Of a stretch of 64,000 bases of DNA, positions 16,916 through 50,965 are shown piece by piece. The notes beneath the pieces were generated by a model. That model searched no databases. It was not told the origin of the DNA and saw only the letters and a list, made by a program, of their open reading frames with translations. The stretch comes from Ulota crispa (lineage: Eukaryota > Streptophyta > Bryopsida > Orthotrichales > Orthotrichaceae), in assembly GCA_963920765.1 (NCBI GenBank), contig OY987248.1, forward strand, positions 191,001-255,000, given 5' to 3'. The position numbers and the translations under genes were made by a program. Each line of letters begins with the position of its first letter. Position 1 is the stretch's first letter.

Positions 16916-17083
16916 GACCGCCACGGAGGGTCCCGTGCGGGGCCGGAGCCGCAGATCCACACACCGCAGCAGATGAGGCGAGGTGCAGCCTGGAGCGGCG
17001 GGAGCCGCACGAAGGCAAGCAGGGAGCACATCCAGTCACCAGTGACCAACTGACCACCCAGCCCCGTTCGTTTCCCCGCCGAA

Positions 17084-17090
17084 TGACGTC
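17084..17090 (+). promoter_or_regulatory. TGACGTC motif upstream of P-protein copy A
   Basis: TGACGTC is a bZIP-type ACGT-core binding motif. It lies 504 bp before the start codon, inside the arm, so copy B has the same site at 50791-50797. The role is inferred from the motif alone; no convincing TATA box was identified. Confidence 0.25.
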
Positions 17091-17312
17091 GGCCGTCTCG
17101 ACTCCCGACGACTGGCTCTCGTCTGAGGCTGGTCTGGTTGAGTGGCGACGGGGGGTCGGATTGAAATATGCCCCAAGCCGTGTTCCTCCCGTGCCAGAGC
17201 AGAGAGCGATCCCTCCCTCATCTGCCACTGCCACCGCTGACTGGCTGATTGTGCTCCCTCCCGAGCCAGGGGTGCCTGCCTGCCTGCCGGAGAAATTTAG
17301 AGGTTCTGTAGT

Positions 17313-17333
17313 GTGGTGGTGGTGGTGGTGGTG
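17313..17333 (+). repeat. GTG trinucleotide microsatellite upstream of copy A
   Basis: A run of seven GTG units lies about 260 bp before the start codon, with the identical mirror at 50548-50568. Equal length in both arms is notable, because microsatellites drift quickly after duplication. Confidence 0.85.
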
Positions 17334-17593
17334 TGGGTGCCCCCCTCCCGCGGACATCCTCCCCTCGCCTGTCTTGTGTGTTCCCCTTCTCCTCGCGGCT
17401 TCTCATTCCATTCTTTTCGCCCAATCCAGTTGGAGTCCCTGTCAATTTCGTAACTCTATTTTGCGTCGTGGGTTGGCGTTCCCCCATTGCGACTGCCTTT
17501 TCTCGGACCGACCGACCGGGTGCAGTTTGGATTGCAGTGGTGTACAGTTGTTTGGAGTTGCCTGCGGCGGATTGACGGCTGCGGTCGCTAGCG

Positions 17594-20500
17594 ATGGAGC
17601 GCGCGAAGCAGCAGGTGGTGAAGCGCTTGGTGCAGCTGGCGGTGCGTCGCGCAGGTGCGCCTTCGAGTCCGTCGTTGCCCTTCGGCCCCGCATTGCGAGG
17701 CCCTGCCGCGACAGGCGTGCGTCGAGGATTCGGCGCCTCATCGTTGGTGGGGGGAGGGCGCTGGAATGGCGTGGCGGAGCCGCCGCTTGGGGCGCGCGCC
17801 GTGTCTATCGAGGCGTTGAAGCCGAGCGATTCGTTTCAGAGGCGGCACAACAGTGCCACCCTGGAGGAGCAGAAAGTGATGGCGGAGGCGTGCGGGTTCG
17901 CGAGCATGGATGCGCTGATCGACGCTACTGTGCCCAAGTCCATCCGCAGGCCGGATTTGAGTCTGAGCAAGTATGCCGAGGGGTTGACGGAGACCCAGAT
18001 GCTGGCGCGTATGAAGGAGCTGGCGTCCAAGAACAAGGTGATGAAGTCTTACATCGGAATGGGGTACCACGACACGCTCGTTCCGACCGTGATTCTTCGC
18101 AACATCCTGGAGAATCCCGGCTGGTACACGCAGTACACGCCTTACCAGGCCGAAATTGCCCAAGGCAGGTTGGAGTCGCTTCTCAATTTTCAGACCATGA
18201 TCACCGATCTCACAGGCATGCCCATGTCCAATGCTTCCTTGTTGGACGAAGGTACCGCCGCGGCCGAGGCGATGACAATGTGTAGCAACATTGCCCGTGG
18301 CAGGAAGAAAACGTTCTTGGTTGCCGACAATTGCCACCCCCAGACCATCGAGGTGTGCAGGACGCGGGCGGATGGACTCGGCTTGAACGTGGTGGTGGCC
18401 GATTACAAGAAATTTGACTACAGCAGCAAGGATGTCAGCGGCGTGCTGGTGCAGTACCCCGCAACGGATGGTGGCGTGCACGATTACTCGGACTTCATCA
18501 AGAATGCCCACGCGCATGGCGTGAAGGTGGTGATGGCGACCGATTTGTTGTCGCTCACGGTGCTTACCCCGCCCGGGGAGCTGGGAGCCGACATGGTCGT
18601 GGGGTCTGCCCAAAGGTTTGGAGTTCCCATGGGCTATGGAGGACCGCACGCTGCGTTTCTTGCAACGTCTCAGGAGTACAAGCGTCTCATGCCTGGACGT
18701 ATCATCGGCATGAGTGTCGATGCCACTGGGAAGCCGTGCCTGCGAATGGCCATGCAGACTCGCGAGCAGCACATTCGTCGTGACAAGGCGACCAGCAATA
18801 TCTGTACCGCTCAGGTACTTATTTTTAAAAAATGAATATCCGGTGAATTTGCGAGTGAGGCTGCTCGAGTTGATGTTTAGGACTAAACCAATCTCTGCGC
18901 TTTGTTTTGAAGAGTGATGGTTGGGCGTCACGCTCCCCTTGCGTGCGGTCGGTCGTCATGAAATGGCGGTCTTCTCGCGGCTGGCAACAACTGACGGCGT
19001 GCGTCTGGTGTTTTGGCAGGCTTTGTTGGCGAACATGGCAGCGATGTACGCGGTTTACCACGGACCGGAGGGTTTGAAGACCATCGCCAACAGAGTGCAT
19101 GGACTGGCCGCGGTCTTCAGCGCGGGAGTGAGCAAACTGGGACTGCAGACCGGATCTGCTCCATTCTTTGACACCGTGAAGGTCATCGTGGGCGAAGGGC
19201 AAGCGGAGAAGATTACGAAGGACGCGACCGCCCACGGTGTGAACTTGAGAGTGTATGATTCCGAGTCGGTGAGTAGTTCCATGCCGTAGCAGCTGTTTAT
19301 CTTCTGAACTCTTTCAGAGCCATTGTGGTGACATCGCGGAGAGACCGATAGACAGACTGCTGCGGCGGTTGGTTTCGTTCTGCAGCTCGAATTGCTGCCT
19401 TCAGTCCCTTGGCAGGCGCACAGACACCAGTGGACTTCGTTTGCGAGCACGGGATTCAGGAGAGATTCCGGTGGCATGCTCCGCTGTAGTCTGCTTCGCA
19501 TGGTGACCTCTGATTTGTGGGTTGTCGATGTTCAGGTCACGCTGTCGTTTGACGAGACCACCACAATTGGAGACGTCGACACCTTGTTCAAGGTTTTCGC
19601 CGGTGGCAAGAGCGTGAGTAGTAATTACCTCTCGCGTGCAGTGAAGGCCGGCTGGACTGTTTCTTACTGAACAGTGATGCGTTGCCTGTTTTTGTTTCTT
19701 GTTTCTTGGTTCTGTCGGGTTCTCCTGATGGATGTCTTTGGCATTAACATCTGGAAGTACCTGCTAATATTTAGGTGGACTTTACTGCTGAACAAATCGC
19801 CGCCGGAGTGGAGAGTCGCCTTCCCTCCAGCTTGGAGCGGACCTCTCCGTATCTTACTCATCCAGTCTTCAGTCAGTATCACTCGGAGCACGAGCTGCTC
19901 CGATATCTTCACAGGTTGCAGGCAAAGGATTTGTCTTTGGTTCATAGCATGATTCCCTTGGGCTCGTGCACGATGAAGCTGAATGCCACTACAGAAATGA
20001 TCCCCGTGACTTGGCCTGAACTGGCGAATTTGCACCCGTTTGCGCCAGAGGAGCAGGTTCAAGGCTACCAGGTGCTTTTTTCTGCATCCTTCATTGTAGC
20101 TATCTTGTTGCCCTAGTCCGACTGACTCACTTTGTCCGGAACCAACCTGGGCAAGATTGGTATTGCTGCCTCGAATGTTTTATTGCTGTTTGGTTTCGCG
20201 CCTGCTTGGTGGCGTCGCTTTTTATAGGTCATTATGTAACAATTTTCTATCCTGCAGGAATTGTTCAAGGAGCTTGGCGACCTGTTGTGCGAGATCACTG
20301 GCTTCGACTCCATGTCGTTACAGCCCAATGCCGGTGCTGCCGGCGAGTATGCAGGGCTTATGGTTATCCGTGCCTACCATCTCGTAAGATTTCCCAACGC
20401 CCTGCGCAGCAATGTGGACGAGGGTGCTGCGATTGGTTTTCGATTGCAAAGAAAATACGATTCTTGTGTTTGGATTTCAGAGTATGGTGGGTCGCTTGAT

Positions 20501-23281
20501 GCCGAACTGTAACTAAAGCGTGCATTTGCATACAGGCTCGAGGAGATGCGCATCGTAATGTCTGCATTATTCCAGTCTCAGCCCACGGAACCAACCCCGC
20601 CAGTGCAGCCATGTGTGGAATGAAAATCGTGATCATCGGAACCGATGCCAACGGGAACGTGGACATCGCCGAGTTGAAGAAAGCAGCCGAAACGCACAAG
20701 GACAACCTTTCCGCCCTCATGGTAAGTACTCACTTTCCTCGTCTACTTTGAGGGCGTTTCGTGGTCGAGGATTTTGAGGGTGTGTCGCATTAGTCCAAGG
20801 ATCAATGGAGTGTAACGGATGCGCTGTATCTCTGCGAAGCGCTGAGGGAGGGCAAGGTTGTACAATGGGTTCACGATGGGCCAAGATGTCCAGCGAATCA
20901 CGCGTCTGCAGTGCCTTCAGTGCCCGTCAAGGCAATCGAATGGGGGTGTCAGGGATATGAAGTTTGAAGGCCTCAGGACCTTCTTGGCTTAATGTCCAGC
21001 AGTTGCGCGTATGACTCACTGGGTGTCATTTCCGTTCGACCGTGCAACAGGTGACCTATCCTTCCACTCATGGGGTCTACGAGGAGGGCATCGACGATAT
21101 CTGCAACATCATTCATCAATACGGCGGGCAGGTGTACATGGACGGTGCCAACATGAACGCTCAGGTGAGTGCCACTTGAGCTCGCTCGCTTGCGCGTATG
21201 GTATTTGCAGCTGCCCGTGTTCGATGAGGAACGTAGTAGCAAGAGGCCGGCATGTGAAACGATGCAGTTGGCTGACCAAGGGGATGGTGGGCTTCAATTT
21301 TTTTTTGGTGAACTTCTTACCTTGAGTCACCCTGCCTTCAGGTGGGTCTGACCAGCCCGGGTCATATTGGAGCAGACGTGTGTCATCTGAACCTTCACAA
21401 GACCTTTTGCATTCCCCACGGAGGGGGCGGTCCTGGCATGGGACCCATCGGAGTGAAGAAGCATTTGGCTCCGTTCTTGCCATCGCATCCCGTGGTATGT
21501 ATTTTTTTTGCGTTCCCGTCAAGAGCTCGGGTGTCGCATGAGCATCAAGTGACTGGAGTTTTGCCTGTGGCCGAGTGTGGCATGAACTGTCGAGAACTTC
21601 GAACTATGTCGGCTACTTGGTCTGGGGAGCAATAACTCTTTGTGACGATTCCTTGAACTGCAGGTGAGCACCGGAGGATTTCCAAGACCAGAGAATACTC
21701 GACCCTTGGGGCCGATTTCAGCTGCTCCGTATGGTTCAGCGTTGATTCTGCCAATTTCTTACACCTACATTGCAATGATGGGCAACAAGGGTTTGACTGA
21801 TGCCTCCAAACTCGCAATCCTGAACGCCAACTACATGGCTCAGCGCTTAGAGGTGGGTTGGATACATAGCGCTGCTCCACGCGATGGTCTGCAGGGCGTG
21901 ACTGATTAGTTTTTGGTATTTGCGTCCTCTTTTTCTTTGACCCGACTACGTAAGTGTGCTTGGCTCGCAGGATCACTATCGTGTACTCTTCCGAGGTGTG
22001 AATAGAACGTGTGCCCACGAGTTCATCATTGACCTACGCAAATTCAAGGTAAACACACGTACTTATAAATAGCCCGATCTTCTTCCTCAATTTCATCTTG
22101 CCCTGATCCGAGAGAATTTGAAGGAGGGTGGCCACTGATACGTCGGTTTCCTTCGTCGCATGGCAGGACACTGCAGGAATTGAGGCGGAGGACGTGGCTA
22201 AGCGTCTGATGGACTACGGTTACCATGCCCCAACCATGTCGTGGCCTGTGACTGGCACTCTCATGATTGAGCCAACAGAAAGCGAAGGCAAGGTATGGCG
22301 TGATTTCAAGTTTTCCATGATGAGATCACGAACTAGTAGTGGCAGAGTTTGGAGCAAGTAGGGGATGTTCAAAACGTAGGACGGTCGGTCATACGCCTTG
22401 TGCGCTCTGAAACAGTTTTGGAGATGGAGGGTTCGCTTGGTGTGTTTTCTTTGTTCTTTGGCGACTTTGGGTGAGCGGCTGCACGAAAGAGGCATTAACA
22501 CCTAGTACCGTGATGCCACAGGCTGAGTTGGATCGGTTCTGTGACGCTTTGATCTCCATCAGAGAGGAAATCGCAGCAATTGAGAGTGGAGCGGCCAGCC
22601 GCGAGGATAACGTTCTCAAGGTACGGGCTTCACAAAACCTGATGTCATCAGAAACAGAGGAGTATGGGGTATTGTGAATGGAGAGAAGATGGGGGACGGT
22701 GGATGTCTAATTCAGATGCTTGTGTTACCAACAGGGTGCCCCACATCCAGCAACAGTTGTGCTGGCCGACGATTGGACGAAATCATACTCAAGGGAGGCT
22801 GCAGCATTCCCAGCATCATGGGTCCGTGCGTCCAAGTTCTGGCCAACGACCGGTGCGTAATCCCATTTGTGACTTGATTTGCTCCTTTTCCGTCTGTTGT
22901 GAAGGACTTCCTTCGTGTTGTGACTCTTGGATATGTCTGACTTCCATGGGACTTCGCTTGCGCAAGTGTCCACGGAGGGAAAGACTAAGCATATGGAAAA
23001 AGAGTCGTTACCCTTTTGAGAGCCGATTAGAGTTGTAGGGTCTTTTTTAAATTTGGTTTTCTGTATCAACGGAATCGTGTACTATCACGGCTTGCTTTCG
23101 ACTCGACGTGCCTTGGTTCGGGACTGGTCGGCAACGTCGTAAATATGTCGCTCTCCCGTGCTGAAGATTGTGTACGTGGGGATGTGCAGGACGTGTGGAC
23201 AACGTTTTCGGAGACCGAAACCTTGTATGTACAAACCCCTCCGCGGAAGTTATTGACGAGAAGATGGCAGCAGCTGCTTGA
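17594..23281 (+). CDS. GLDP: Glycine decarboxylase P-protein, mitochondrial, copy A
   Basis: This is the PLP-dependent subunit of the mitochondrial glycine cleavage complex; it decarboxylates glycine and passes aminomethyl to H-protein. Coding exons, all GT-AG: 17594-18814, 19020-19268, 19536-19613, 19775-20071, 20258-20383, 20536-20721, 21051-21164, 21342-21494, 21664-21852, 21971-22048, 22167-22292, 22522-22620, 22735-22852, 23190-23281. They join without frame loss to 1041 aa, normal for eukaryotic P-proteins. The start is set by an in-frame TGA at 17573 and a GCGATGG context. Residues 1-75 are rich in Arg, Ala and Ser (transit peptide). [10 protein letters not shown] opens the mature region, [12 protein letters not shown] lies in the N-half, and [18 protein letters not shown] carries the PLP lysine at K777. 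Introns are short (114-337 bp). Oddity: codon 883 is AGA (Arg) in [10 protein letters not shown], where copy B has GGA (Gly); this may weaken the enzyme or be a sequencing error. Confidence 0.93.
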
Positions 23282-23581
23282 GGTCCAGGATTCAATTGTT
23301 ACCATGGCACGTACGACTCTTTCCTTCGAGGCTCTAAATAGTGTACTTAATGATTAAGCTGCTGTCACACCTTGTACTCTACCAACCTGGTTGCTGGCTA
23401 CGTACTCCTCGTGCTATCAGCGCGCCATCAGGACCGTACAGTTGCTTTAGATCCACATTCTGTAGCGGCTCCGCTCCTTACTCTTGTGAGGTCCACTAGT
23501 GGAAAGTGCAAACATGCAAACATGGGAAATGGTCGTACCTGACAACCAGTCAGAGAGTGTTAACTGGTTTTCAATTGTATA

Positions 23582-23587
23582 AATAAA
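23582..23587 (+). terminator. Candidate polyadenylation signal of copy A
   Basis: AATAAA lies 300 bp after the stop codon and 60 bp before the duplicated arm ends, so the arm may contain the whole 3' end of the gene. The mirror site is 44294-44299. Confidence 0.5.
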
Positions 23588-24237
23588 ATCCTGCATATTG
23601 GAAATTGCGTAGTGCCTGTCCAGAGGTTCCAAGCCTTGTGCACATATCGTTGTCGAACTTGTGGAGTTGCAGAGTTCGTACTTTTAGGTTTTTTATAAAC
23701 CTTTTTTTCTTTTGAATGTATGGAGTGCAGAAGTGGCCTATGCAGAGTTTTCGTTCATCCATGGTTATGTGTTGTTGATTTGCGGCAGTTTCCCTGGTTA
23801 TGCATGTAATTGGTTCTGAACTGATCGGCTTGGTGTGCGTGTAATTTTTTGTGGAAGGGTGTTTTTTGGTGATTTTTGGTGTCATATAAATGTAGTAGTC
23901 CTGCAGTTTATGCTGCTCCAAGCTGATGATTGGGGGTTTCTAGTGCACCAAGATGGATCAACCAGCTGTTAAGCCTTGCACTATTCCTTTCTCCCTCCTC
24001 GCTTTGCAGCTTACCGGCGCGGAGGAATCTTCTGTTTCTAGTGCATTCTTGCTCCTCTCCAACTTGCTCCTTCTTGTTTTTCTTTTCCAACTTTCTTGCC
24101 TCAAAGTCTTGAATTTGACTCGGTGCAACGTGGGGAGGGAGTGAACTTTCAAATCTGCATTGTGCATTGAATATCAACGTGGAGAGGGAGCCAAATCTCA
24201 AATTTGCATGAAGCTTCGCCTGTAACTTAAACTTTTA

Positions 24238-24595
24238 GGGAATTACTACATCGACACCCTAAATTGTTAAAGGGGACACCCCTGTGAGCGACACTGATTT
24301 TTTAATTTAAATCAAAAGATTTGTTTCACCTTTATCATTCTAAGATATACTAAAAAAAATAGATGTGCTTAAATTTGAAAGGACTTTTGAGTAACTTAAA
24401 GCAAAAACACATCAAAAAATAGAATTAGTGCAATAATATTTCAACAAAAAAATTTATTTATCATATTTTCTTTCAAAGAGGTGGTTATGCCATCATTGAA
24501 TGATGGACCACTTGAATAAATCAAAAATAGCACCAAATTTCATGCTCACCGGGGGTGTCCCGTTGGCAATTTAGGGTGTCGCTGTACTAATTCCT
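24238..24595. mobile_element. hAT-like MITE with 8-bp target duplication
   Basis: Inverted ends of about 45 bp share GACACCCTAAATTG and the adjoining GGGAATTACTAC / GTACTAATTCC. The flanks are AACTTTTA on both sides (24230-24237 and 24596-24603), an 8-bp duplication typical of hAT elements. The AT-rich interior has no transposase. Confidence 0.7.
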
Positions 24596-24638
24596 AACTT
24601 TTATTACTTATAATGAGCAATGTAAGCAGCCTTGCCTC

Positions 24639-24890
24639 TTGGATGCCGGTTTTATCCATTGCCAACCTAACGAGGTCCCACAAGGAGCGTACTCGCATCT
24701 GCAGCAACATAGACAAGAAGCGTACGTGGAGAACGCAGAAATTCTTGAGTCGATGCCACCATTCTTAGGTGAAGCTTTTGCTGCTTTCTTGAGTCCTGTT
24801 TGTGAATCCATCTCCCTAAACGATGTTAGCTCTTCACTTTCAAGTGCCCAAATGGCTCAAAGTGACAACTTCCCATATCTTTATCTTTAA
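24639..24890 (+). other. Unrecognised 83-codon open frame, possible exon relic
   Basis: It starts MDAGFIHCQPNEVPQG and has a more balanced composition than its AT-rich surroundings, with few low-complexity runs. The frame is open upstream of the Met as well (EQCKQPCLL), so it could be an internal exon or a captured fragment. I recognise no domain and see no clear splice partners. It sits directly beside a hAT-like MITE. It may not be coding. Confidence 0.25.
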
Positions 24891-26267
24891 GAGGTCCTTT
24901 GATGGAAGCTTGTTTTGAACGTCACTATGATCAACTAGTATCTTTCAAAGTGGACATGCTATTTTTAGCTCGAGCAATTACATGTTAAACCTGTCATTGA
25001 AACAGGTTTGGTGAGCATTCTATAGCTGGAAATGATATGGCCAAAATTTTGGAGTAGATTTTTCTGCTTTTTTGAGTTTTTCCGAGTTTTTGTTTGAGGT
25101 GTTTAGACGTCGAGGTTTGATTGTAAGGGTTTAGGGTCTGAAACCGTTACTTTAAGGGCTGATTGGATATTTTGTGGTCTACTTGAGATAGGAAGATTTT
25201 TCATCTAGTAATTAGACAAACAAAATTAGATGTCGAATGTAACACAGTTTTTTTCATATTTTTTGAAGCATTATTCAATTGTTGATGAATTTTCAAAGTT
25301 CTCTATAGCAGATACCTATTTGTGATTTGTAGGTCTCCCAAAATCCATCTCCTTGCAAATTGTAAGAGATAGGTGAAACCAAAGAGTTTGATTAGCTTTT
25401 ACAAAAGAATATACTTTTTTTTGTCCACTCAAGAGGGTCCATTTAAGGGACCAATACACTTACATTCTTGAGCTAATTATAAGGACGCTTTTGATGAGAT
25501 TGTCGCAATTTGCTCTAGGTATTGACACTTGCAAAGAAAGTAAGAATTGATTCTTTGATTCCAACTCTGCAATATTTGATCATCAACAATTATGAGAAAG
25601 AGTACATCTGTTCTTTTGTGCAGGGGGAATGCCAAATCGTGAGGGGATCCAGGAGCCTTGAGTAGTGAACTAGATTTTTTGTCAAAATATTAAATTGTCA
25701 AAATATTAAATTTCACTACATAAGACCTTGTATTATAGACATTCGTCTCTTGAATAACTTTCTTTTTTGAAAGTTTTTCCATTGATTAAAACTCAAAATT
25801 GATTCTTGGCTCAGCACTCATGGGCTCACAGTTTTACGCTCACAAAATAGCGTCGTCCTTTTGTGCAACCTCTGCCTTACATTTGAGGACGGCCAGGCAA
25901 GTCAGAGCTTGACATCTCAAATTTTTGTTTTAGTGCTTCCATAAGCAGCTTATAATTCATAGCCGATTGGATTGTTTTTTACTGTGCTCTTGTAAGCTTA
26001 TTTGAAGTCAGTTCTGATTTCTTTGAGTAAGATTAGTGCTGCATGATCGTAATTTGTTGTGTGCACGCATTCTTACTTCGTAACCTTTGTGCAGGCTGAG
26101 GAGAATTAATTGTTGATGTTCTCTTAAATCGATCTACTTACGCCAGTCCACCTTCACGGTATGCAGTGTCTCATCTTTTGAGTCTTGGCGACGATTGCTC
26201 ATGTTCAACTTATCTGACTATGTGAATTTGCCAAGTTTTTGCCATTAACCGTATACTTCGATGTACC
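24891..26267. other. AT-rich intergenic DNA, nothing recognised
   Basis: No gene or transposon end is supported. A patch around 25800-26160 has more balanced GC but only short frames. Confidence 0.4.
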
Positions 26268-26494
26268 TTAACCCCTGAAGGGCCCTTGGGCTCTGGAGCT
26301 ATGGTACCAAATACGGTCACAATCAATATCTAGAGTTTGAATTAACTAAAAATTAAGTTTTACAACCATACATATTGAAAGGTTGTATGGTGGTGGGTGC
26401 ATAAAAAAATTTGGAAAATCCTTAAAGCAGCTCAAATATGTCTGTACATACGGCTGTACAGCCGCAGAAAGTTTTTGTGACTTTCAGTGGTTAA
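26268..26494 (+). mobile_element. TTAA-bounded MITE family A, copy 3
   Basis: TTAA lies at both ends, with start CCCCTGAAGGGCCCTTGGGC and end TGACTTTCAGTGG. The interior ACCAAATACGGTCACAATC and CATACATATTGAAAGG matches copy 1 at 12014-12233. Confidence 0.75.
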
Positions 26495-26759
26495 TAAGCT
26501 TGGCTAGTTTCAATCATTGGTTTTGAAGTTGCTTGAGACAGTCTAGCTAAAACCTCATGTTTTTTATGGAAATTTCCTCGCTCGTTGTATGATTTTTGAA
26601 CATATTTTTCATATGACTTTCATCGTCAATCTTGTTAGATTTGAAGCTAGTACATATGCAATTGGAGAAGTTGTTGGATGAGGAGCAATAATGGACTACT
26701 TAAACAAGATTTAAATGGACCGTATACATGAATATGAGGTACAGACTCCTCTTGTACAA

Positions 26760-26995
26760 TTATCCCTTAAACACCCTTTAGGGCATAATAGATATGTTGC
26801 TATATAATTGACATTTATCACTATCAAGAAGTTTTAATTAGCGATCTCAAATAGCTCACTAGGACTGCATTGATCTACATTTCAATTTCTTTGTCAATCT
26901 CCAATGTAGTAAAGGTCTAAATCCATTCCAAATACAAAGAAAAACACCTCGTATTGTATTTGTCACAACCACACACTAAGACATTTAAGGATTAA
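26760..26995 (-). mobile_element. TTAA-bounded MITE family B, copy 1 (reverse)
   Basis: The reverse complement aligns along its length with 56851-57084 (AAATACAATACGAGG, AGATCAATGCAGTCCTAGTG, ATTATGCCCT). The right boundary is TTAA; the left reads TTAT, a one-base decay. Ends are CCCTTAAACACCC and, on the other strand, TCCTTAAATGTC. Confidence 0.65.
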
Positions 26996-28434
26996 TGTCA
27001 ATTTTATTCTTGTTTGTTTTCAATCTTCTTGCAAAGCTAAATATAGGTACTAATACCTGAAGTTAAAAGTAAATGTAGTGCTTAGTCTCTACTTCATAAT
27101 AAGTAAAAGTATGTGATTCTCTTGAAACTTGTGAGCCTAGAAAGCATTAGGTTCAAAAATATACAACAAACTGTCTAGCTTCATAGATAGTAATTTGTCA
27201 ATCAGAAGTATATATTTTGTTCAATGTTAGAGAATATCTAAAGTAGAGGATACCCGTTTTGTCACTTTAAGCAATTTTACATATGTAAGAGTTTAAAATC
27301 TGGTTTATGGTTAAACGTGTAAAGAGATTTTTGGGTACAAGGGCCAACTCTGCTGAGATTAAATTTTATCATTATAAATTCCATTTGCAATTTCCAAACG
27401 TGGGAGGTTGTAAACCTGTCCATAGATGACATTAAATAGCCTGTTTCTTTTAAACATCTTATACAAGTTTGATATGGGAAGTTTTAGACCATTATAATAA
27501 ATGCAATTGTCTTTTCTATGGCATTTGAATTATTTGAAACCAACAAATTATATATAAAAAAATTCAGCTTTGATATTAAACCAACGAAACTAATTTATGT
27601 ATGTAACTTTCATTTATATATTTTAATTTTATTTGTAAAACTTAGTTTCATTTTGTATTTTATTTTTTGGACTTTTCCTTTTTTTTTTTAGCATTATGGA
27701 TGATTGCTTTATCTTTCAATCTCCTCCTTTTCACAACCTCAATTTGAACTTTGACACTTCACAAGCATTGCAACAAATTTTAACTATTGCAACACATAAA
27801 AGTGACATTGCATGGATAGTTGAAGATGAAACACTGTATAATACTAAAAGTTTGTGTCCACGCGTGGTTACAATTTTTTTGGAGAAATTTGTCAAAAGAG
27901 TGCTAATCTTATGAAAGCATCACAATGGTGAAGTTGCATGACAAATTTTTCAATGACATTAGTGAGAATTTCAATTTAATGCTTTTTTATACTAAAAGCC
28001 ATTTAGGAGTATAAAAGCAATTGCATACAGAAGTTGCTATTGGTTGCAATTGCAAACGCTCCAATTGAATGGTTTTATCTTGAATTTCTTGACCAAGTTC
28101 TTGACGCATTTAAACAGTTTTAAAAAATAAGAGTTAAATTTTTTCTAATTTTCTAATTGAATTAGCACTTAAAATATTTGTAGTTCCAAATCATATATAC
28201 ACAACTTAATTTAGAGATTTTAAAGATCATGTATTATTTATAAAATAACATGTCATAATTAAATGCAACAACCTATGGATGTCTACAACATTATTTTATT
28301 GTTACAACAAGGTAAATTAACATGTATTATAGAAAGAAATGATTAATTAATTAAAAAATATAAAACTCATCATTTAGGTTTATTACAAAGAAGATTTTGA
28401 TCTAATTTATTAAGTGAAAACCTTATAGAAAACA
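26996..28434. other. AT-rich intergenic DNA with one doubtful short ORF
   Basis: An open frame at 27696-27914 (72 codons, starting MDDCFIFQSPPFHNLN) is preceded by a T-rich tract ending in AG. It matches nothing I recognise and is followed at once by stops. I do not call it a gene. No other structure is seen. Confidence 0.35.
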
Positions 28435-29356: not shown

Positions 29357-29667
29357 TGGAGAGATCACTCCTAGTAACTTTATGGAATACACGTGAGTTA
29401 AGAGAGTATTTGAAGTAGGCCTATTTATCTAAAATATGGTATTTAAAATGGCCATAGTTTTATATAAAAAGCTACTTAGGATATATTTCTGGTACCCTAT
29501 GATTTTTTATAAATTCATTCATTTGGTTTTTAAATGGGGCTATTTTATGTATAAATTTTGTTTGTCCAACTTTATCCTATCTCCATTATTCATTAAAAAA
29601 AAATCTTTCTATTACATATACACACATGATATTCACCATAAAATCAATAACAAGTATACAAATTAAA

Positions 29668-32581: not shown

Positions 32582-32589
32582 AAGTATAG

Positions 32590-36106: not shown

Positions 36107-36243
36107 GAGGCTCAAAGTCGATGGAGTGTCATTCTTGTCTATATTGTTGCTGAATATTGTTTATGAAACCTTAGCATCATCAAGGGTAGGTACAACACAA
36201 GTACCAATTCCAACTTTTTTTACATATTTAGTACAATCAGTTC

Positions 36244-38314: not shown

Positions 38315-38668
38315 CCTCTGAAAATGCCCAAGGCACTCAATTTGGATGTTAACAATATTTTGAAGTTAAAGAAAACATAACCAATTTGTTATTTCTAACA
38401 GTATATATTTTTGAAATATTCCTCTAAAAGTTTAGTTTTAGCATCAAAATTTTGATTTTGAAATGATTGGTTATGATTTTTCTATTAAGGATTTTTTGCA
38501 AGGGTGTTCATAGCAATCTTGACTTTCCATAGTGTTGAGAGCTCTTAGAAATGAGCCTAAAAAACACTAGATCATGGAGATAAATTTACACTATAGATTC
38601 ATTTTACAAAAATATAGAAGAAATTTTGAAAAGCTGTAAGTTGAATGGCATTATATATGTTTAGTCTT

Positions 38669-41600
38669 TTAACCCCTAAAGTCCCATTGCCCCTATGGGG
38701 ACAAAATAGATATTGGGTAGGTTCATTCATTACCAATATTTGTTGGGATTTTTTGAAACTTTTAGTGAAGATGCAAAGTACGAAGAGTTTTGCATGTATA
38801 CAATTTTTATGCTAATCCAATCTTTGGTTTAGAAGTTAGAGTAGAAAAACATCAAATTTTAGCTGTTTGGGGACAAAACATGAGTGAAATTTTCTTAGAC
38901 CTTTACCTGGGGGCTGGGGCAATGCAATACAAGAAACATGTCCAAAAATGAAAAAATAAAACTATCTTTATATCTACAATTAATAAAAAAACTCACATTG
39001 GTGACCTATCCGTACAGTCGTTTGTGACCAGTTTACTTGTTGTCAAAAAATAGTTTGTAACCAGTGTTAGGCGGTTAGGTTGCCGGTGAGGCTTTGCCTC
39101 TCCCATATTGACTTGCAAAACCCTTGCAATTGTACTTGACAGTTAGGCGGTTTGGTTATGGATCTTTACACTTTCTTTGTGATTGCAGGTGAGGATTTGA
39201 ATCTTTGCATCTTCCATTACTTTGTAGCATTAGAGCATTCATTTACCTTGATAAATGGGTTTACAAGACTAGAACATCTCTAAAAAAAATTAGGGCACTT
39301 GTCTTTTTGAAGGCTCAAGAGTAGAATTTCTGGTGCTTATGCAAGCTTTTGGATGTTTTGAGATCATGATCAGTCTCAATCAAAACAAGCCTCTTTGCTT
39401 ATTTATAGAAGGTTTTTTTTGGAAAGATTTGGTCTTCAATCAGCAATTGAGAGTAAATTAGATCACTTGTTACAGCCAGCCTAAGTGTAAGCCAAAGCTC
39501 ATAATTAAAAAAAAAAAAAAAAACCGATTTCAATACTTGGACGGTTACTAGACATATGGCTATGTTTTGAATCTACACAAGCCCTAAATTTCAAAACATT
39601 GAGATAAGCCTCTACTGGTCTTAGCGTATCCACAAAAACTGAAGATTTTCATGAGAAAAAGCAGTCATAGAGCATTGATAACTGATTATGGAGCTTCTAA
39701 AAAAACCGCATACTAGCACCCACTATAAAGGGCTCATTCAACCGTATTTGAACTTTGAACAAATAAACTCTATAAACGTAATTTCAGAAGTCACAAGTCA
39801 GAGTAAGATAAGTAGATTGAAGCTTGAATCGTCAATTTCACCAAGAGGTTTTGGACCTCACGTGCGTCCATCCCAAAGTCAAAACAACCGAATGTAATGT
39901 TAGTGAAGATGCACAAGGTATTGTCACTCCAAAAATGAGTGTTATAGCCTTCACAGAGAAAAAATGAAGGTCAAAGCATCAATACTTACTATTAAAAAAA
40001 AATCTCATGAGGAATAAAATTTGTGTAGCATTGGATTAATATGTAGAAATCATGTTTTGATTTTAAAAATCCTATGTCTACTCTAAAGTCTTTGGTCCAA
40101 AAAACCTCCTGAAAACACAAGTGCCTAGTCTTTGTGTCCTAGTCCCAGTGTGTACCAATATAGTCTACTGCAGCAAAGATATACCAATTAAGCAAGCAAT
40201 TTTTTTTTTTGTTTTTTGATTGTAAACAAAGCTATTAGTGGAATGTATTTATACAATCTGCAACTAAGCTCATTGTGTTAGTGAGTGCTTGGCAAGACAA
40301 AAGAGGAGATTAGAAGATAAGTTTCCTTAATAAATGCTTTGACTAATCCAAATGGCTCTAAAAATGATTTGTTTTAAAAAAAGCCTCTTAGCCTACGGAA
40401 TATAGAGTCAGGTGTATATACATGAATAACCTCTTAGCTCCTAAATTATCTATAATTTTTGGGTTAGATATCGGGATTTCTTGTAAGAACCTATCACTTC
40501 AAAGCCTACTGTTGTGTATGCGGTATGAGGCTAAAATTTGTAATTGCTGTAAATCATAAAAGTAGCCTTTCATTGCTTGCATTACAAATGATATTAAAAT
40601 AAGAAAGAGGCTCATAAAATTCATATTATGTATAAACATTTGCTCCAAGCATTTAAATTTACCTTGCATGTATGGTAGATATTCTTATTTTAGCTTTGTG
40701 CTAAAAATGCTATGTAAGCACTTTGTCTGGGCAATCTCCATATATGGGTTTTTGTATGGTGTAAAAAACATTAGCTTAAACATAGTGAATAATTCTATGC
40801 TTTTTACAAATTCATATGTGTATTAAAAAACACTACAGTAGAACTTTCCTAAACTAATACCTCTCTAAACTAATATGCTATGTAAATTAATGTAGAACAC
40901 AAATATCAATGTCAAGGTCATAATATAAAAAAACCAAGCTACCTATAATGCTATCCCAGCACTACCTTCAAGGTTATTTCAGTTACACTTCCACAAAATT
41001 AACTACTAATTTACTTAAAATAATCTGGTTCTTGGAATCCCAACCATATTAGTTTAGAGAGGTTCTACTGTACCTTGTTTGTTCAAGATTGAAAAGGACT
41101 ATAGAGTTTGGTGCCTATACTTTATAAAGAGTATGGACCCTCTATGTCTACTAACTATGTAGCAAAGCTTTAGGAAGTTTCTTTTTCAAAAATAAACGTA
41201 ATGCTACTTTAGTTACTCTTGTATCCTAGCTCCTATATGCAAGTAGTCTAGTGACATTTGCTTATATAGAAATTTAGAATAAAGAAAAAAAGAAAAAAAT
41301 ATTGCAAGTATAATACAAATATTTTCAAAAAAAAATTTTTACTTTTTTTTTCCATTTGAAATTGGTAACACTAGAGGTGAACACTAGCTCCACTTTTCAA
41401 AGCTGTCCATAGTCTTAAGGTTGTTGGTGAAGGCATTGGCCTTTCTACATTTAATTGGAATTGAGAGAATTGGTTTTTTTTCTTTTTTTTACTTGTGAAG
41501 AATATGTATAGTATTTCTTTTGTTGTTTGGATCTTAAAGTTGTGAAAAAATGTATGAAATGGGAATTGCATTTTTCAAACTAGGTTACGTACTATCAATT

Positions 41601-42001
41601 CAAAACACATGCACACATTGCAAGATTTTATTAGAGGTGTTCCCCATCTTTCTTAAATCTAAAAATTGATATAAAAATTATTGACTTGATCCTCATCATA
41701 TTCAAATTAGAAATCCAAAACTTGTAGTGGAAGTTTTTTCACAAATGGAAATCAAAGACATCTGAAATTTTAGGGCAACCACCCAAAAAAAAATTCCCCT
41801 AATTTTGAATGTAATTACCTTCCAATATGTATAATCAAACTTGTTGAAAATTTTACCACATGATCCAAGACAAATAAAGCACAAGATCCTATAATTTGAT
41901 TCAATAAAAAATATATTTTTTGTTTTCTTAGATGAGTGCATCAAAAATAGCATTTGAGTGGTTTTTGACAAAAAAAATGGCCTTGGGATTTTAGGGGTTA
42001 T
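38669..42001 (-). mobile_element. Nested TTAA-bounded element family D, 3.3 kb
   Basis: The left is TTAA then CCCCTAAAGTCCCATTGCCC with a palindromic CCCCTATGGGG. The right is CCTTGGGATTTTAGGGG followed by TTAT. On the minus strand the start (AAAAACCACTCAAATGC, GGATCTTGTGC) follows family D and the finish matches the family D right end. It is inserted exactly at a TTAA inside a family E element. It is the longest TTAA element here, yet carries no frame I can call transposase. Confidence 0.7.
40836..41070. mobile_element. Emigrant/pogo-like MITE with TA target site
   Basis: Terminal inverted repeats CAGTAGAACTTTCCTAAAC and, on the other strand, CAGTAGAACCTCTCTAAAC, flanked by TA on both sides. 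CAGTARAACCTCT-type ends with TA duplication are typical of plant pogo-derived Emigrant MITEs. It lies inside the 3.3-kb TTAA element. Confidence 0.75.
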
Positions 42002-42283
42002 TTTTTTGGTGACCAACTTTTTACATTTGACGTTTGATAAAAAGATTGAAAGACTCCAAGTCATTTTCACAATTTTAACACCCTTGTGATCAAACATTAT
42101 AATCTTTCAATCTATAAGTGATGTTATAAATTGGGTTTTTTTTTCATACGTGATCTTTAACATATCTAGTTTGAATATATATGGTTACAATTTTTTTATA
42201 AATGATACAACTTATGCTAGCTTTTTGTTCAATATAGAGCAAATTCTTGGAAGCTCAAAAAAAGCCATGGCATTTAGGGTTTC

Positions 42284-44233
42284 AAAGCCAGGCCTTATAT
42301 AATGTAGTAATGTAGTGATGATAGGACACCATCCTCACAATTTCCAATAACTTTTCATTAAGAAAGCCTTTGTCCCAATAAGCACACACCCAATAGGGGA
42401 TATCAAACCGTAGAATTTTGCACCCAGTAACTATAAGAGACTTCACCCCATAACTTGATAAAATTTGCAAGTTATTAGGTTTGATAACTCTATCACCACC
42501 TTAGGAGATGTCCCATAACTCAAACCAATTATGGCCCCTTTTTATAGAAGTTATCATATGATCTCACAGCTTTCAAGCATGTTAGCCTTGTTTAACAACT
42601 AAACCCTAGATTCTAATCTACACAATTTTGTTGTTGAGCTTGTTTGTAACCAATTCTCTCTACAATTGTTGCTTAGAGCTTCTCAAAATCCCTATCCATT
42701 GATGTAAAAGCACATGATTAGGAAACATTGTTGCAAGACTTTTGATCTCCGTATTATCTACACAAAATCTTGCATTTTTAGGTTGCCCCACACTAATTTC
42801 TTGACATTTCACACTACATAAATATTTACTGCTGCTACAATAATTCTCATCAAAGTTTATTGCAACAAACAATTTTTAAAGGTCTTGTTAAGAACAATGA
42901 CATTGTAAAAAAACAAACTAACGGTTTGGAAGTCATGAACAATATGAAATCCAAGTATTTGAAGAGTTACATGTGCTTCCAAGTGACCAAATGATGAGTC
43001 GTGAGGTAATTTGATGGGGTAAGGTAACCTAATTGTCAAGACAACCTAAATGCAATATTCAGTGTAGTGAACTTTGTGGTGAAGTTCAACGATTGGGTGA
43101 TTTTGGAGAGTATGAACAATAGAATTTCAGGAACCAATACTTGTAGCTTCTCCAGCATCCTTGACGCTACAACCTCTTGTCCTCAAAGCTTCACCATCAT
43201 TCTTGAATCTTCCAGAGAGCGGCCTTGGAGCTCTTCTAGCATCTTGGGATTTGCAACGAAGCCACAAAGCATAATCTCTCAAAGCGTTCACACTACTTGA
43301 CTTGCTACTAGAGCTGTCAACTAGAGGTCATTGACATAACATGTTTGTTACAAGGTGGTAAAAATTCAAATTTGTGATTCTTGAACCAAATTTCTGTCAA
43401 AAATTTGGGGATAAGCAACCACTTGACTCCAGCACATGAACTAGAGCTTCATGCATTAGCAAACCAAGGATTGGCTTCACTTCCTTTGTGTATAGAAGTA
43501 ACCTATTGTATAATATTGTATTGTATTGCTATTGCTACTAATATTAGTGGGAAGAATTTGAAGTTTTTTGTATCGATTCATCCAATTGCACGTCCATGAT
43601 AAAATTCTTGTGCCACTATATTTGTGTGCACATCTTGCATCCCATTTCCTCACAAATCCTAAGCTACACAACTTGTGCAAGGCTTACACTTTTTTAAAGC
43701 AAAACTACTATAAGCATCTCGACAAAGCTAATTTGGGTTGCATAGGGAAGTGCCTCTTCAACATGCGTAACAAGAACGCTATGCTATGACAGGTAGGGCA
43801 TGATCACGTATGGGTTGGGGAAAAAAATGATGAGATAGGGAAAAGACAAAAGAGTAATGCACACGAAGCGAGTGAAGCTTTGTAAGGCGTGACGTGACAA
43901 CTTTGCAGATTGGTGTCAGAGTACTCACCCAACAACTTGGGGAAAATTACAGGATAGGGATATTTGATATTCGGAGGTTTGACACCCCTACTAAGCCAAA
44001 CGTAAATTCCAGAACACACCAGCCACGAAAACGACACACTCCCTATGAAAGGGCTCGGACTAATTGCCAGTAGCAGGATGTAGCAATGAAAAGACCATAC
44101 CAGTTGACAACTAAAAACCCAGCTTCTCTAACAACACAAAACCTTAACAACAACCATACTTCAACCCTGTAACGTACATCAGCAGGAAGTCGAGGTAGCC
44201 CACACAACCACTGAACCAAGACAATGACAAGAC
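42284..44233. other. Spacer next to the right arm, nothing recognised
   Basis: No credible gene is seen. GC content rises toward 44234. Nothing here is similar to the DNA just inside the left arm (23648 onward), which fixes the inner junctions of the duplication. Confidence 0.45.
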
Positions 44234-44293
44234 ATATGTGCACAAGGCTTGGAACCTCTGGACAGGCACTACGCAATTTCCAATATGCAGGAT

Positions 44294-44299
44294 TTTATT
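44294..44299 (-). terminator. Candidate polyadenylation signal of copy B
   Basis: AATAAA on the minus strand, 300 bp after the stop codon of copy B and mirror of 23582-23587. Confidence 0.5.
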
Positions 44300-44599
44300 T
44301 ATACAATTGAAAACCAGTTAACACTCTCTGACTGGTTGTCAGGTACGACCATTTCCCATGTTTGCATGTTTGCACTTTCCACTAGTGGACCTCACAAGAG
44401 TAAGGAGCGGAGCCGCTACAGAATGTGGATCTAAAGCAACTGTACGGTCCTGATGGCGCGCTGATAGCACGAGGAGTACGTAGCCAGCAACCAGGTTGGT
44501 AGAGTACAAGGTGTGACAGCAGCTTAATCATTAAGTACACTATTTAGAGCCTCGAAGGAAAGAGTCGTACGTGCCATGGTAACAATTGAATCCTGGACC

Positions 44600-47500
44600 T
44601 CAAGCAGCTGCTGCCATCTTCTCGTCAATAACTTCCGCGGAGGGGTTTGTACATACAAGGTTTCGGTCTCCGAAAACGTTGTCCACACGTCCTGCACATC
44701 CCCACGTACACAATCTTCAGCACGGGAGAGCGACATATTTACGACGTTGCCGACCAGTCCCGAACCAAGGCACGTCGAGTCGAAAGCAAGCCGTGATAGT
44801 ACACGATTCCGTTGATACAGAAAACCAAATTTAAAAAAGACCCTACAACTCTAATCGGCTCTCAAAAGGGTAACGACTCTTTTTCCATATGCTTAGTCTT
44901 TCCCTCCGTGGACACTTGCGCAAGCGAAGTCCCATGGAAGTCAGACATATCCAAGAGTCACAACACGAAGGAAGTCCTTCACAACAGACGGAAAAGGAGC
45001 AAATCAAGTCACAAATGGGATTACGCACCGGTCGTTGGCCAGAACTTGGACGCACGGACCCATGATGCTGGGAATGCTGCAGCCTCCCTTGAGTATGATT
45101 TCGTCCAATCGTCGGCCAGCACAACTGTTGCTGGATGTGGGGCACCCTGTTGGTAACACAAGCATCTGAATTAGACATCCACCGTCCCCCATCTTCTCTC
45201 CATTCACAATACCCCATACTCCTCTGTTTCTGATGACATCAGGTTTTGTGAAGCCCGTACCTTGAGAACGTTATCCTCGCGGCTGGCCGCTCCACTCTCA
45301 ATTGCTGCGATTTCCTCTCTGATGGAGATCAAAGCGTCACAGAACCGATCCAACTCAGCCTGTGGCATCACGGTACTAGGTGTTAATGCCTCTTTCGTGC
45401 AGCCGCTCACCCAAAGTCGCCAAAGAACAAAGAAAACACACCAAGCGAACCCTCCATCTCCAAAACTGTTTCAGAGCGCACAAGGCGTATGACCGACCGT
45501 CCTACGTTTTGAACATCCCCTACTTGCTCCAAACTCTGCCACTACTAGTTCGTGATCTCATCATGGAAAACTTGAAATCACGCCATACCTTGCCTTCGCT
45601 TTCTGTTGGCTCAATCATGAGAGTGCCAGTCACAGGCCACGACATGGTTGGGGCATGGTAACCGTAGTCCATCAGACGCTTAGCCACGTCCTCCGCCTCA
45701 ATTCCTGCAGTGTCCTGCCATGCGACGAAGGAAACCGACGTATCAGTGGCCACCCTCCTTCAAATTCTCTCGGATCAGGGCAAGATGAAATTGAGGAAGA
45801 AGATCGGGCTATTTATAAGTACGTGTGTTTACCTTGAATTTGCGTAGGTCAATGATGAACTCGTGGGCACACGTTCCATTCACACCTCGGAAGAGTACAC
45901 GATAGTGATCCTGCGAGCCAAGCACACTTACGTAGTCGGGTCAAAGAAAAAGAGGACGCAAATACCAAAAACTAATCAGTCACGCCCTGCAGACCATCGC
46001 GTGGAGCAGCGCTATGTATCCAACCCACCTCTAAGCGCTGAGCCATGTAGTTGGCGTTCAGGATTGCGAGTTTGGAGGCATCAGTCAAACCCTTGTTGCC
46101 CATCATTGCAATGTAGGTGTAAGAAATTGGCAGAATCAACGCTGAACCATACGGAGCAGCTGAAATCGGCCCCAAGGGTCGAGTATTCTCTGGTCTTGGA
46201 AATCCTCCGGTGCTCACCTGCAGTTCAAGGAATCGTCACAAAGAGTTATTGCTCCCCAGACCAAGTAGCCGACATAGTTCGAAGTTCTCGACAGTTCATG
46301 CCACACTCGGCCACAGGCAAAACTCCAGTCACTTGATGCTCATGCGACACCCGAGCTCTTGACGGGAACGCAAAAAAAATACATACCACGGGATGCGATG
46401 GCAAGAACGGAGCCAAATGCTTCTTCACTCCGATGGGTCCCATGCCAGGACCGCCCCCTCCGTGGGGAATGCAAAAGGTCTTGTGAAGGTTCAGATGACA
46501 CACGTCTGCTCCAATATGACCCGGGCTGGTCAGACCCACCTGAAGGCAGGGTGACTCAAGGTAAGAAGTTCACCAAAAAAAAATTGAAGCCCACCATCCC
46601 CTTGGTCAGCCAACTGCATCGTTTCACATGCCGGCCTCTTGCTACTACGTTCCTCATCGAACACGGGCAGCTGCAAATACCATACGCGCAAGCGAGCGAG
46701 CTCAAGTGGCACTCACCTGAGCGTTCATGTTGGCACCGTCCATGTACACCTGCCCGCCGTATTGATGAATGATGTTGCAGATATCGTCGATGCCCTCCTC
46801 GTAGACCCCATGAGTGGAAGGATAGGTCACCTGTTGCACGGTCGAACGGAAATGACACCCAGTGAGTCATACGCGCAACTGCTGGACATTAAGCCAAGAA
46901 GGTCCTGAGGCCTTCAAACTTCATATCCCTGACACCCCCATTCGATTGCCTTGACGGGCACTGAAGGCACTGCAGACGCGTGATTCGCTGGACATCTTGG
47001 CCCATCGTGAACCCATTGTACAACCTTGCCCTCCCTCAGCGCTTCGCAGAGATACAGCGCATCCGTTACACTCCATTGATCCTTGGACTAATGCGACACA
47101 CCCTCAAAATCCTCGACCACGAAACGCCCTCAAAGTAGACGAGGAAAGTGAGTACTTACCATGAGGGCGGAAAGGTTGTCCTTGTGCGTTTCGGCTGCTT
47201 TCTTCAACTCGGCGATGTCCACGTTCCCGTTGGCATCGGTTCCGATGATCACGATTTTCATTCCACACATGGCTGCACTGGCGGGGTTGGTTCCGTGGGC
47301 TGAGACTGGAATAATGCAGACATTACGATGCGCATCTCCTCGAGCCTGTATGCAAATGCACGCTTTAGTTACAGTTCGGCATCAAGCGACCCACCATACT
47401 CTGAAATCCAAACACAAGAATCGTATTTTCTTTGCAATCGAAAACCAATCGCAGCACCCTCGTCCACATTGCTGCGCAGGGCGTTGGGAAATCTTACGAG

Positions 47501-50287
47501 ATGGTAGGCACGGATAACCATAAGCCCTGCATACTCGCCGGCAGCACCGGCATTGGGCTGTAACGACATGGAGTCGAAGCCAGTGATCTCGCACAACAGG
47601 TCGCCAAGCTCCTTGAACAATTCCTGCAGGATAGAAAATTGTTACATAATGACCTATAAAAAGCGACGCCACCAAGCAGGCGCGAAACCAAACAGCAATA
47701 AAACATTCGAGGCAGCAATACCAATCTTGCCCAGGTTGGTTCCGGACAAAGTGAGTCAGTCGGACTAGGGCAACAAGATAGCTACAATGAAGGATGCAGA
47801 AAAAAGCACCTGGTAGCCTTGAACCTGCTCCTCTGGCGCAAACGGGTGCAAATTCGCCAGTTCAGGCCAAGTCACGGGGATCATTTCTGTAGTGGCATTC
47901 AGCTTCATCGTGCACGAGCCCAAGGGAATCATGCTATGAACCAAAGACAAATCCTTTGCCTGCAACCTGTGAAGATATCGGAGCAGCTCGTGCTCCGAGT
48001 GATACTGACTGAAGACTGGATGAGTAAGATACGGAGAGGTCCGCTCCAAGCTGGAGGGAAGGCGACTCTCCACTCCGGCGGCGATTTGTTCAGCAGTAAA
48101 GTCCACCTAAATATTAGCAGGTACTTCCAGATGTTAATGCCAAAGACATCCATCAGGAGAACCCGACAGAACCAAGAAACAAGAAACAAAAACAGGCAAC
48201 GCATCACTGTTCAGTAAGAAACAGTCCAGCCGGCCTTCACTGCACGCGAGAGGTAATTACTACTCACGCTCTTGCCACCGGCGAAAACCTTGAACAAGGT
48301 GTCGACGTCTCCAATTGTGGTGGTCTCGTCAAACGACAGCGTGACCTGAACATCGACAACCCACAAATCAGAGGTCACCATGCGAAGCAGACTACAGCGG
48401 AGCATGCCACCGGAATCTCTCCTGAATCCCGTGCTCGCAAACGAAGTCCACTGGTGTCTGTGCGCCTGCCAAGGGACTGAAGGCAGCAATTCGAGCTGCA
48501 GAACGAAACCAACCGCCGCAGCAGTCTGTCTATCGGTCTCTCCGCGATGTCACCACAATGGCTCTGAAAGAGTTCAGAAGATAAACAGCTGCTACGGCAT
48601 GGAACTACTCACCGACTCGGAATCATACACTCTCAAGTTCACACCGTGGGCGGTCGCGTCCTTCGTAATCTTCTCCGCTTGCCCTTCGCCCACGATGACC
48701 TTCACGGTGTCAAAGAATGGAGCAGATCCGGTCTGCAGTCCCAGTTTGCTCACTCCCGCGCTGAAGACCGCGGCCAGTCCATGCACTCTGTTGGCGATGG
48801 TCTTCAAACCCTCCGGTCCGTGGTAAACCGCGTACATCGCTGCCATGTTCGCCAACAAAGCCTGCCAAAACACCAGACGCACGCCGTCAGTTGTTGCCAG
48901 CCGCGAGAAGACCGCCATTTCATGACGACCGACCGCACGCAAGGGGAGCGTGACGCCCAACCATCACTCTTCAAAACAAAGCGCAGAGATTGGTTTAGTC
49001 CTAAACATCAACTCGAGCAGCCTCACTCGCAAATTCACCGGATATTCATTTTTTAAAAATAAGTACCTGAGCGGTACAGATATTGCTGGTCGCCTTGTCA
49101 CGACGAATGTGCTGCTCGCGAGTCTGCATGGCCATTCGCAGGCACGGCTTCCCAGTGGCATCGACACTCATGCCGATGATACGTCCAGGCATGAGACGCT
49201 TGTACTCCTGAGACGTTGCAAGAAACGCAGCGTGCGGTCCTCCATAGCCCATGGGAACTCCAAACCTTTGGGCAGACCCCACGACCATGTCGGCTCCCAG
49301 CTCCCCGGGCGGGGTAAGCACCGTGAGCGACAACAAATCGGTCGCCATCACCACCTTCACGCCATGCGCGTGGGCATTCTTGATGAAGTCCGAGTAATCG
49401 TGCACGCCACCATCCGTTGCGGGGTACTGCACCAGCACGCCGCTGACATCCTTGCTGCTGTAGTCAAATTTCTTGTAATCGGCCACCACCACGTTCAAGC
49501 CGAGTCCATCCGCCCGCGTCCTGCACACCTCGATGGTCTGGGGGTGGCAATTGTCGGCAACCAAGAACGTTTTCTTCCTGCCACGGGCAATGTTGCTACA
49601 CATTGTCATCGCCTCGGCCGCGGCGGTACCTTCGTCCAACAAGGAAGCATTGGACATGGGCATGCCTGTGAGATCGGTGATCATGGTCTGAAAATTGAGA
49701 AGCGACTCCAACCTGCCTTGGGCAATTTCGGCCTGGTAAGGCGTGTACTGCGTGTACCAGCCGGGATTCTCCAGGATGTTGCGAAGAATCACGGTCGGAA
49801 CGAGCGTGTCGTGGTACCCCATTCCGATGTAAGACTTCATCACCTTGTTCTTGGACGCCAGCTCCTTCATACGCGCCAGCATCTGGGTCTCCGTCAACCC
49901 CTCGGCATACTTGCTCAGACTCAAATCCGGCCTGCGGATGGACTTGGGCACAGTAGCGTCGATCAGCGCATCCATGCTCGCGAACCCGCACGCCTCCGCC
50001 ATCACTTTCTGCTCCTCCAGGGTGGCACTGTTGTGCCGCCTCTGAAACGAATCGCTCGGCTTCAACGCCTCGATAGACACGGCGCGCGCCCCAAGCGGCG
50101 GCTCCGCCACGCCATTCCAGCGCCCTCCCCCCACCAACGATGAGGCGCCGAATCCTCGACGCACGCCTGTCGCGGCAGGGCCTCGCAATGCGGGGCCGAA
50201 GGGCAACGACGGACTCGAAGGCGCACCTGCGCGACGCACCGCCAGCTGCACCAAGCGCTTCACCACCTGCTGCTTCGCGCGCTCCAT
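44600..50287 (-). CDS. GLDP: Glycine decarboxylase P-protein, mitochondrial, copy B
   Basis: Second complete gene for the PLP-containing P-protein of the glycine cleavage complex, facing copy A tail to tail. Exons in coding order: 50287-49067, 48861-48613, 48345-48268, 48106-47810, 47623-47498, 47345-47160, 46830-46717, 46539-46387, 46217-46029, 45910-45833, 45714-45589, 45359-45261, 45146-45029, 44691-44600. All introns are GT-AG and identical to copy A. The predicted 1041-aa product has the transit peptide, [10 protein letters not shown], both P-protein halves and the PLP lysine K777, and it keeps Gly at residue 883 ([10 protein letters not shown]), as in P-proteins I know; this is the copy most likely to be fully functional. 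Only 678 bp of upstream sequence is shared with copy A, so distal promoter control could differ. Without expression data I cannot say whether both are used. Confidence 0.94.
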
Positions 50288-50965
50288 CGCTAGCGACCGC
50301 AGCCGTCAATCCGCCGCAGGCAACTCCAAACAACTGTACACCACTGCAATCCAAACTGCACCCGGTCGGTCGGTCCGAGAAAAGGCAGTCGCAATGGGGG
50401 AACGCCAACCCACGACGCAAAATAGAGTTACGAAATTGACAGGGACTCCAACTGGATTGGGCGAAAAGAATGGAATGAGAAGCCGCGAGGAGAAGGGGAA
50501 CACACAAGACAGGCGAGGGGAGGATGTCCGCGGGAGGGGGGCACCCACACCACCACCACCACCACCACACTACAGAACCTCTAAATTTCTCCGGCAGGCA
50601 GGCAGGCACCCCTGGCTCGGGAGGGAGCACAATCAGCCAGTCAGCGGTGGCAGTGGCAGATGAGGGAGGGATCGCTCTCTGCTCTGGCACGGGAGGAACA
50701 CGGCTTGGGGCATATTTCAATCCGACCCCCCGTCGCCACTCAACCAGACCAGCCTCAGACGAGAGCCAGTCGTCGGGAGTCGAGACGGCCGACGTCATTC
50801 GGCGGGGAAACGAACGGGGCTGGGTGGTCAGTTGGTCACTGGTGACTGGATGTGCTCCCTGCTTGCCTTCGTGCGGCTCCCGCCGCTCCAGGCTGCACCT
50901 CGCCTCATCTGCTGCGGTGTGTGGATCTGCGGCTCCGGCCCCGCACGGGACCCTCTGTGGCGGTC

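Follow-up and report, generated by a model that had tools for sequence, protein, structure and literature searches.

The window, by which we mean the whole stretch of 64,000 nucleotides analysed here, is part of a 22.0-Mb contig (C7) of the moss Ulota crispa genome assembly (denoted G000) and contains two copies of one gene in mirror orientation, each within an arm of 6,732 bp. A sequence-only reading of the same DNA had described two inverted arms of 6732 bp that lie 20.6 kb apart and differ at two positions without indels. Base-for-base comparison found 2 mismatches in 6,732 bp (0.03%) and 0 gaps, so that the coordinates, length, mismatches and gaplessness of that description all hold. Given its length, the match between the arms is beyond chance. 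The features of the locus are as follows, in window positions.

16054-16915, plus strand: upstream flank of arm 1; unique, CpG observed/expected ratio (o/e) 0.40, read as the target site
16916-23647, plus strand: arm 1, P-protein gene copy of 6,732 bp, read as the younger copy
17594-23281, plus strand: coding span of arm 1, 14 exons, with the Pfam domains GDC-P and GcvP2_C
17594-18814, 19020-19268, 19536-19613, 19775-20071, 20258-20383, 20536-20721, 21051-21164, plus strand: exons 1-7 of arm 1
21342-21494, 21664-21852, 21971-22048, 22167-22292, 22522-22620, 22735-22852, 23190-23281, plus strand: exons 8-14 of arm 1
23648-44233, no strand: spacer of 20,586 bp
44234-50965, minus strand: arm 2, P-protein gene copy of 6,732 bp, read as the older site
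44600-50287, minus strand: coding span of arm 2, the mirror of arm 1
50966-52033, minus strand: DNA upstream of arm 2; unique, with a CpG o/e of 0.88, taken to be the native upstream region
16925 G (arm 1) versus 50956 A (arm 2), gene strand: mismatch 1, upstream of the coding region and nine bases inside the outer border
22004 A (arm 1) versus 45877 G (arm 2), gene strand: mismatch 2, codon 883, AGA (Arg) versus GGA (Gly)
79648-79847 and 139456-139655: 200-N gaps, outside the window

The gene in each arm encodes the glycine decarboxylase P-protein, a key enzyme component of photorespiration. Spliced alignment with bacterial P-proteins yielded a model of 14 exons and 13 introns, all of the GT-AG type. 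The first model (1,031 aa) was ten residues short at the start of exon 9, and codon 883 is number 873 in its numbering. The acceptor before 21664 was then chosen from the L049 alignment and from the usual form of plant P-proteins. The final model has 1,041 aa and a stop-free frame in both copies, with a single residue as the sole coding difference, and bears out the earlier claim of a complete gene. Pfam domains GDC-P (9.5e-197) and GcvP2_C (1.3e-59) extended over the length of the protein. In the first model, residues 73-1021 aligned with the solved P-protein 4lgl and residues 72-1025 with 6i33. Each arm includes 678 bp 5' of the start codon and 366 bp 3' of the stop, its 3' end lying 60 bp beyond an AATAAA. 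Genome-wide, the exon 1 query gave 2 matches and the rest of the protein 26, all inside the two arms, so that the search recognised no P gene beyond these two. Two stretches of the arm's 5' part, 1,501 and 601 bases long, likewise matched the two arms only in the 274.8-Mb genome (157 contigs).

The near-identity of the arms includes all 13 introns, which show 0 differences, and a GTG run at 17313-17333 that is the same in both copies, as had been claimed. Outside all four borders, identity fell at once to chance level (0.20-0.40 in 50-bp blocks): the first 50 bp past the borders gave 0.40 and 0.26, and the following blocks 0.20-0.38; the flanks differ on all four sides. A sensitive search of 849-bp flanks found no convincing residual homology beside the borders (best E 0.041 for the outer and 0.79 for the inner flanks), and the same search recovered the 5' flank of a second gene pair, described below, at 5e-67. 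With 5-kb flanks, matches were present to 6e-72 (outer) and 9e-18 (inner). The outer match is a dispersed palindromic repeat, and the inner one is out of register, lying 4.8 and 2.2 kb from the borders. No direct word longer than 4 bp was common to the two flanks of either arm within 25 bp on each side, as a target-site duplication would be. The microhomology of 5 bp near each border is at chance level, being equalled by 20% and 21% of random pairs. The mismatch at 16925, nine bases inside the outer border as previously noted, is unusually placed; the probability that at least one of two uniformly placed changes falls within 10 bp of an end is 0.006.

Five tested ORFs of the spacer and five chosen ORFs outside the arms had no Pfam match at the curated cut-off, and Rfam and tRNA scans of the window gave no matches. 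Several repeats were observed around the arms. Short dispersed repeats with many copies genome-wide occupy 15626-16053 and 52034-52500, the former being palindromic since it matches on both strands. The spacer end beside arm 2 (42397-43992), itself broken by a repeat, has one diverged, paralogous relative on contig C2 (25,857,127-25,858,299, minus strand; 73-79% alike); this likeness ends ~240 bp short of the arm, and the relative yielded no ancestral state. A degenerate tandem array at 55486-56392 has a basic AAAGATTCTC-like unit of ~10 bp plus longer periods, and related stretches lie near positions -65762 and 101707 (negative positions precede the window). A pair of 2,161-bp sequences with 99.95% identity at -53237 and -44825 was considered as a gene pair and rejected, its direct orientation and TG...CA ends leading us to read it as retrotransposon LTRs. 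They would bound a young retrotransposon at -53237 to -42665 on contig C7, whose LTRs show one difference and lie 8.4 kb apart; a third LTR copy, inverted and 85% alike, lies near 150548-152666.

Two signs bear on which arm is the older. Among 80 bacterial loci, 75 had a long protein and all 75 aligned at residue 883, which was Gly in 66, Asn in 7, Glu in 1, Asp in 1 and Arg in none. At this site the aligned human protein carries Gly and that of 4lgl Glu; Asn, Asp and Glu are tolerated in other species. Since Gly is usual and Arg occurs in 0 of 75, the Arg883 of arm 1 is most likely the derived state. The other sign is CpG content. The gene has a CpG o/e of 0.92, compared with 0.37 for the rest of the window. 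Upstream of arm 2 the DNA stays CpG-rich for ~1 kb and then drops at a repeat family, whereas upstream of arm 1 it is poor at once and resembles the surroundings; in 862 bp there are 37 CpG upstream of arm 2 versus 10 upstream of arm 1 (Fisher p = 1e-4). The 3' flanks, with 15 versus 15 CpG in 580 bp each, are uninformative on the older arm. Because upstream CpG and Gly883, both informative signs, agree, arm 2 looks like the older site and arm 1 like the younger copy.

A survey with 15 query proteins was read for local pairs of equal score, whose DNA was then compared. For 13 of the 15 queries, 31 of 78, 35 of 74 and 28 of 124 candidates were scored, and misses are likely. At least one near-identical mirror pair was verified for four of the 15 query proteins, and five such pairs are known with the P pair included. 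One of them is an Lhca pair on contig C6 (18420468-18454421), whose copies lie 33 kb apart and have a core of 1,576 bp with 10 mismatches and 0 gaps (99.4%). Adjoining this core, the upstream DNA is 66-78% alike. Because the core continues past both ends of the reading frames seen, into non-coding DNA, coding constraint alone is insufficient to explain it. A conserved core beside a diverged flank is the mark expected of gene conversion, which has likely acted on the Lhca pair. The best chains for the Lhca protein were 7xqp_4, 7ksq_4 and 8htu_4, ~45 bits above the next chain; 7xqp, 7ksq and 8htu are entries for photosystem I of the moss Physcomitrium. For the Lhcb protein, 8htu and 7xqp chains ranked second and third, behind a multi-domain fusion protein.

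The SHMT copies on contig C3, ~15 kb apart, showed 0 differences in 400 bases, including a whole intron with its microsatellite, and were identical at 60 of 60 bases ~0.4 kb upstream. A probe of 60 bp showed no likeness 1 kb upstream, nor did those located ~1.2 and 2.2 kb beyond the second matched exon. Since the likeness ends in these distal probes, the SHMT arm is gene-sized, like the P arm. An LHCSR-like pair on contig C7, presumptively named from reading the protein, has copies 99 kb apart with 2 differences in 396 bases. The alpha-tubulin copies on contig C1, 8.6 kb apart, score equally (891.5 bits over 1,230 bp) and agree at 30 of 30 bases, a small sample, ~0.2 kb beyond the match.

A cluster of Lhcb genes on contig C4 (21.39-21.77 Mb) has members on both strands; for the three members that were read, likeness is 95.6-96.0% over coding DNA and 76-86% over the alignable flank pieces. 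Two opposite-strand members both score 430.4 bits, but their DNA is only 95.6% alike. PCNA copies are inverted by score (201.6 and 201.5 bits), but a 30-bp upstream probe agreed at 12 of 30 bases in register, and PCNA was rejected as a near-identical mirror pair. Of four local GapA copies, which occupy both strands, two on opposite strands are within 0.4 bits of each other by score alone. Judged by scores only, direct pairs with equal scores were found for LHC on contig C1, RbcS on C1 and tubulin on C9, and GS on C2 was nearly equal. Among the candidates scored, no mirror pair of equal score lay within 200 kb for actin, EF1A, catalase, enolase, Rubisco activase or T protein, and the H protein query gave no match among those listed. 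A hand-picked local list, including PCNA and leaving aside the C4 Lhcb cluster, held 6 inverted and 4 direct pairs (p = 0.75), and therefore no orientation bias is claimed.

We consider it probable, on balance, that the P pair is real and arose recently, when one whole gene was duplicated at the DNA level, in inverted orientation, from the site of arm 2 to that of arm 1; we infer the direction of copying, its age and the repair mechanism. The gene at arm 2, on the minus strand, would have been copied in reverse from ~0.7 kb 5' of the start to 0.4 kb 3' of the stop, and the reversed copy placed 20.6 kb off as arm 1. Break repair by template switching or end joining is favoured over transposition or unequal crossing-over, because the borders have no long homology, target-site duplication or transposon-like ends. 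At an assumed rate of 7e-9 per site and year and under an assumed clock, 2 differences in 6,732 bp would correspond to 21,000 years (95% Poisson range 2,600-77,000). A retrocopy is ruled out: both arms keep the 13 introns, which excludes a spliced mRNA intermediate, and no poly(A) stands at the border. A copy carried by a transposon is also rejected, with no target-site duplication and with the 5' 1.5 kb of the arm found only here. Once formed, the arms could convert each other and could flip the spacer by recombination.

The main rival is that the pair is old and has been kept alike by gene conversion between the arms. The sequence-only reading had called for either very recent copying or conversion. 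The arms are indeed too alike for old independent neutral evolution; between the two accounts, the flank evidence favours recent copying, and arm-to-arm conversion is a real possibility, though one we rate as rather unlikely. The Lhca pair, with its near-identical core beside a 5' flank of ~66-78% likeness, keeps conversion possible for the P pair, and it also has one core border beyond which no residual homology is seen, so that conversion may have acted even where a border is clean. According to PMC3045890, which cites Lang et al. 2008, highly similar tandem genes of Physcomitrella may evolve in concert by conversion. The mismatch right at the P-arm border (p = 0.006) speaks against a simple recent copy; it would be compatible with conversion that covered the core but stopped short of the edge, or with a junction error. 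Recent copying also accounts less simply than conversion for several near-identical pairs in one genome, as it would take several independent, very recent events. On the other side, no decayed homology adjoins any P-arm border, and a CpG-rich upstream flank, present at both Lhca copies (0.78 and 0.66), is missing at arm 1. PMC7251063, moreover, counts Physcomitrella as one of the genomes in which LTRs show a low share of mutual conversion. The homology-free borders and the upstream CpG contrast favour recent copying for the P pair, as far as comparison within one genome can indicate.

Another route to the same layout is an inversion of the spacer with staggered breaks, which would leave a copy of the stretch between the nicks at either end of the inverted segment, the two in opposite orientation. 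The order of arm, spacer and reversed arm is what this model predicts (PMC7584159). Yet 6.7 kb would be a long overhang; the single strands at stalled forks mentioned there reach at most 3 kb, and repair is discussed there as an alternative. We regard this origin as improbable. Since equal arms permit a later flip of the spacer, the present adjacency of the flanks proves little. It is very improbable that a single gene was placed twice by the assembler, an error that the sequence-only reading had left open. The 200-N gaps, 29 kb and 88 kb beyond arm 2, do mark scaffold joins near the locus. However, neither the window nor the 100 kb on its left side contains an N gap, the flanks differ on all four sides, the arms have two differences of which one changes the protein, and similar pairs recur at four other loci, one of them with diverged flanks.

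Recent duplication of the P-protein gene thus stays our preferred reading. That gene-sized mirror pairs recur is of wider interest: the P pair is one of several in this genome, and pairs of this kind are known. With several near-perfect mirror pairs in one genome, recent duplication and gene conversion can be told apart directly: the flanks of at least one pair have diverged, as conversion would leave them, and others show no diverged flanks in the DNA read, as would fresh copies. A bolder view, which we put forward as speculative and doubtful, is that essential genes (P-protein, SHMT, alpha-tubulin, Lhca and LHCSR-like) form a standing class of gene-sized mirror pairs that arises often and is held identical by conversion, giving a mainly haploid plant, in which homologous recombination is very active, nearby repair templates. 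The rate of homologous-recombination repair in Physcomitrella is extraordinarily high, as stated in PMC3729371, and in a moss with such efficient recombination these pairs would make the origin and upkeep of local copies experimentally testable. Such mirror pairs may also be collapsed, or mistaken for errors, in assemblies. Among the matches listed, no open paper on mirror-orientation gene pairs in moss nuclear genomes was found by title or by the start of its abstract.

The tandem arrays of Physcomitrella, as described in PMC3045890, resemble the P pair in being local copies of one gene that are unexpectedly alike in a moss. The P pair differs from that description in being inverted, in having a 20.6-kb spacer and in a likeness that includes every intron. 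Inverted duplications formed at the ends of inversions have the same layout, but the P arms are longer than the overhangs discussed in PMC7584159. Gene palindromes of the human Y chromosome, Adineta vaga and Folsomia candida (PMC5490193) also consist of mirror gene copies. The near-identity of the P arms resembles that of the human Y arms, whereas the Folsomia palindromes are, as described there, far more diverged. In contrast to such palindromes, the P pair has arms of a single gene, a long spacer and no sign of great age.
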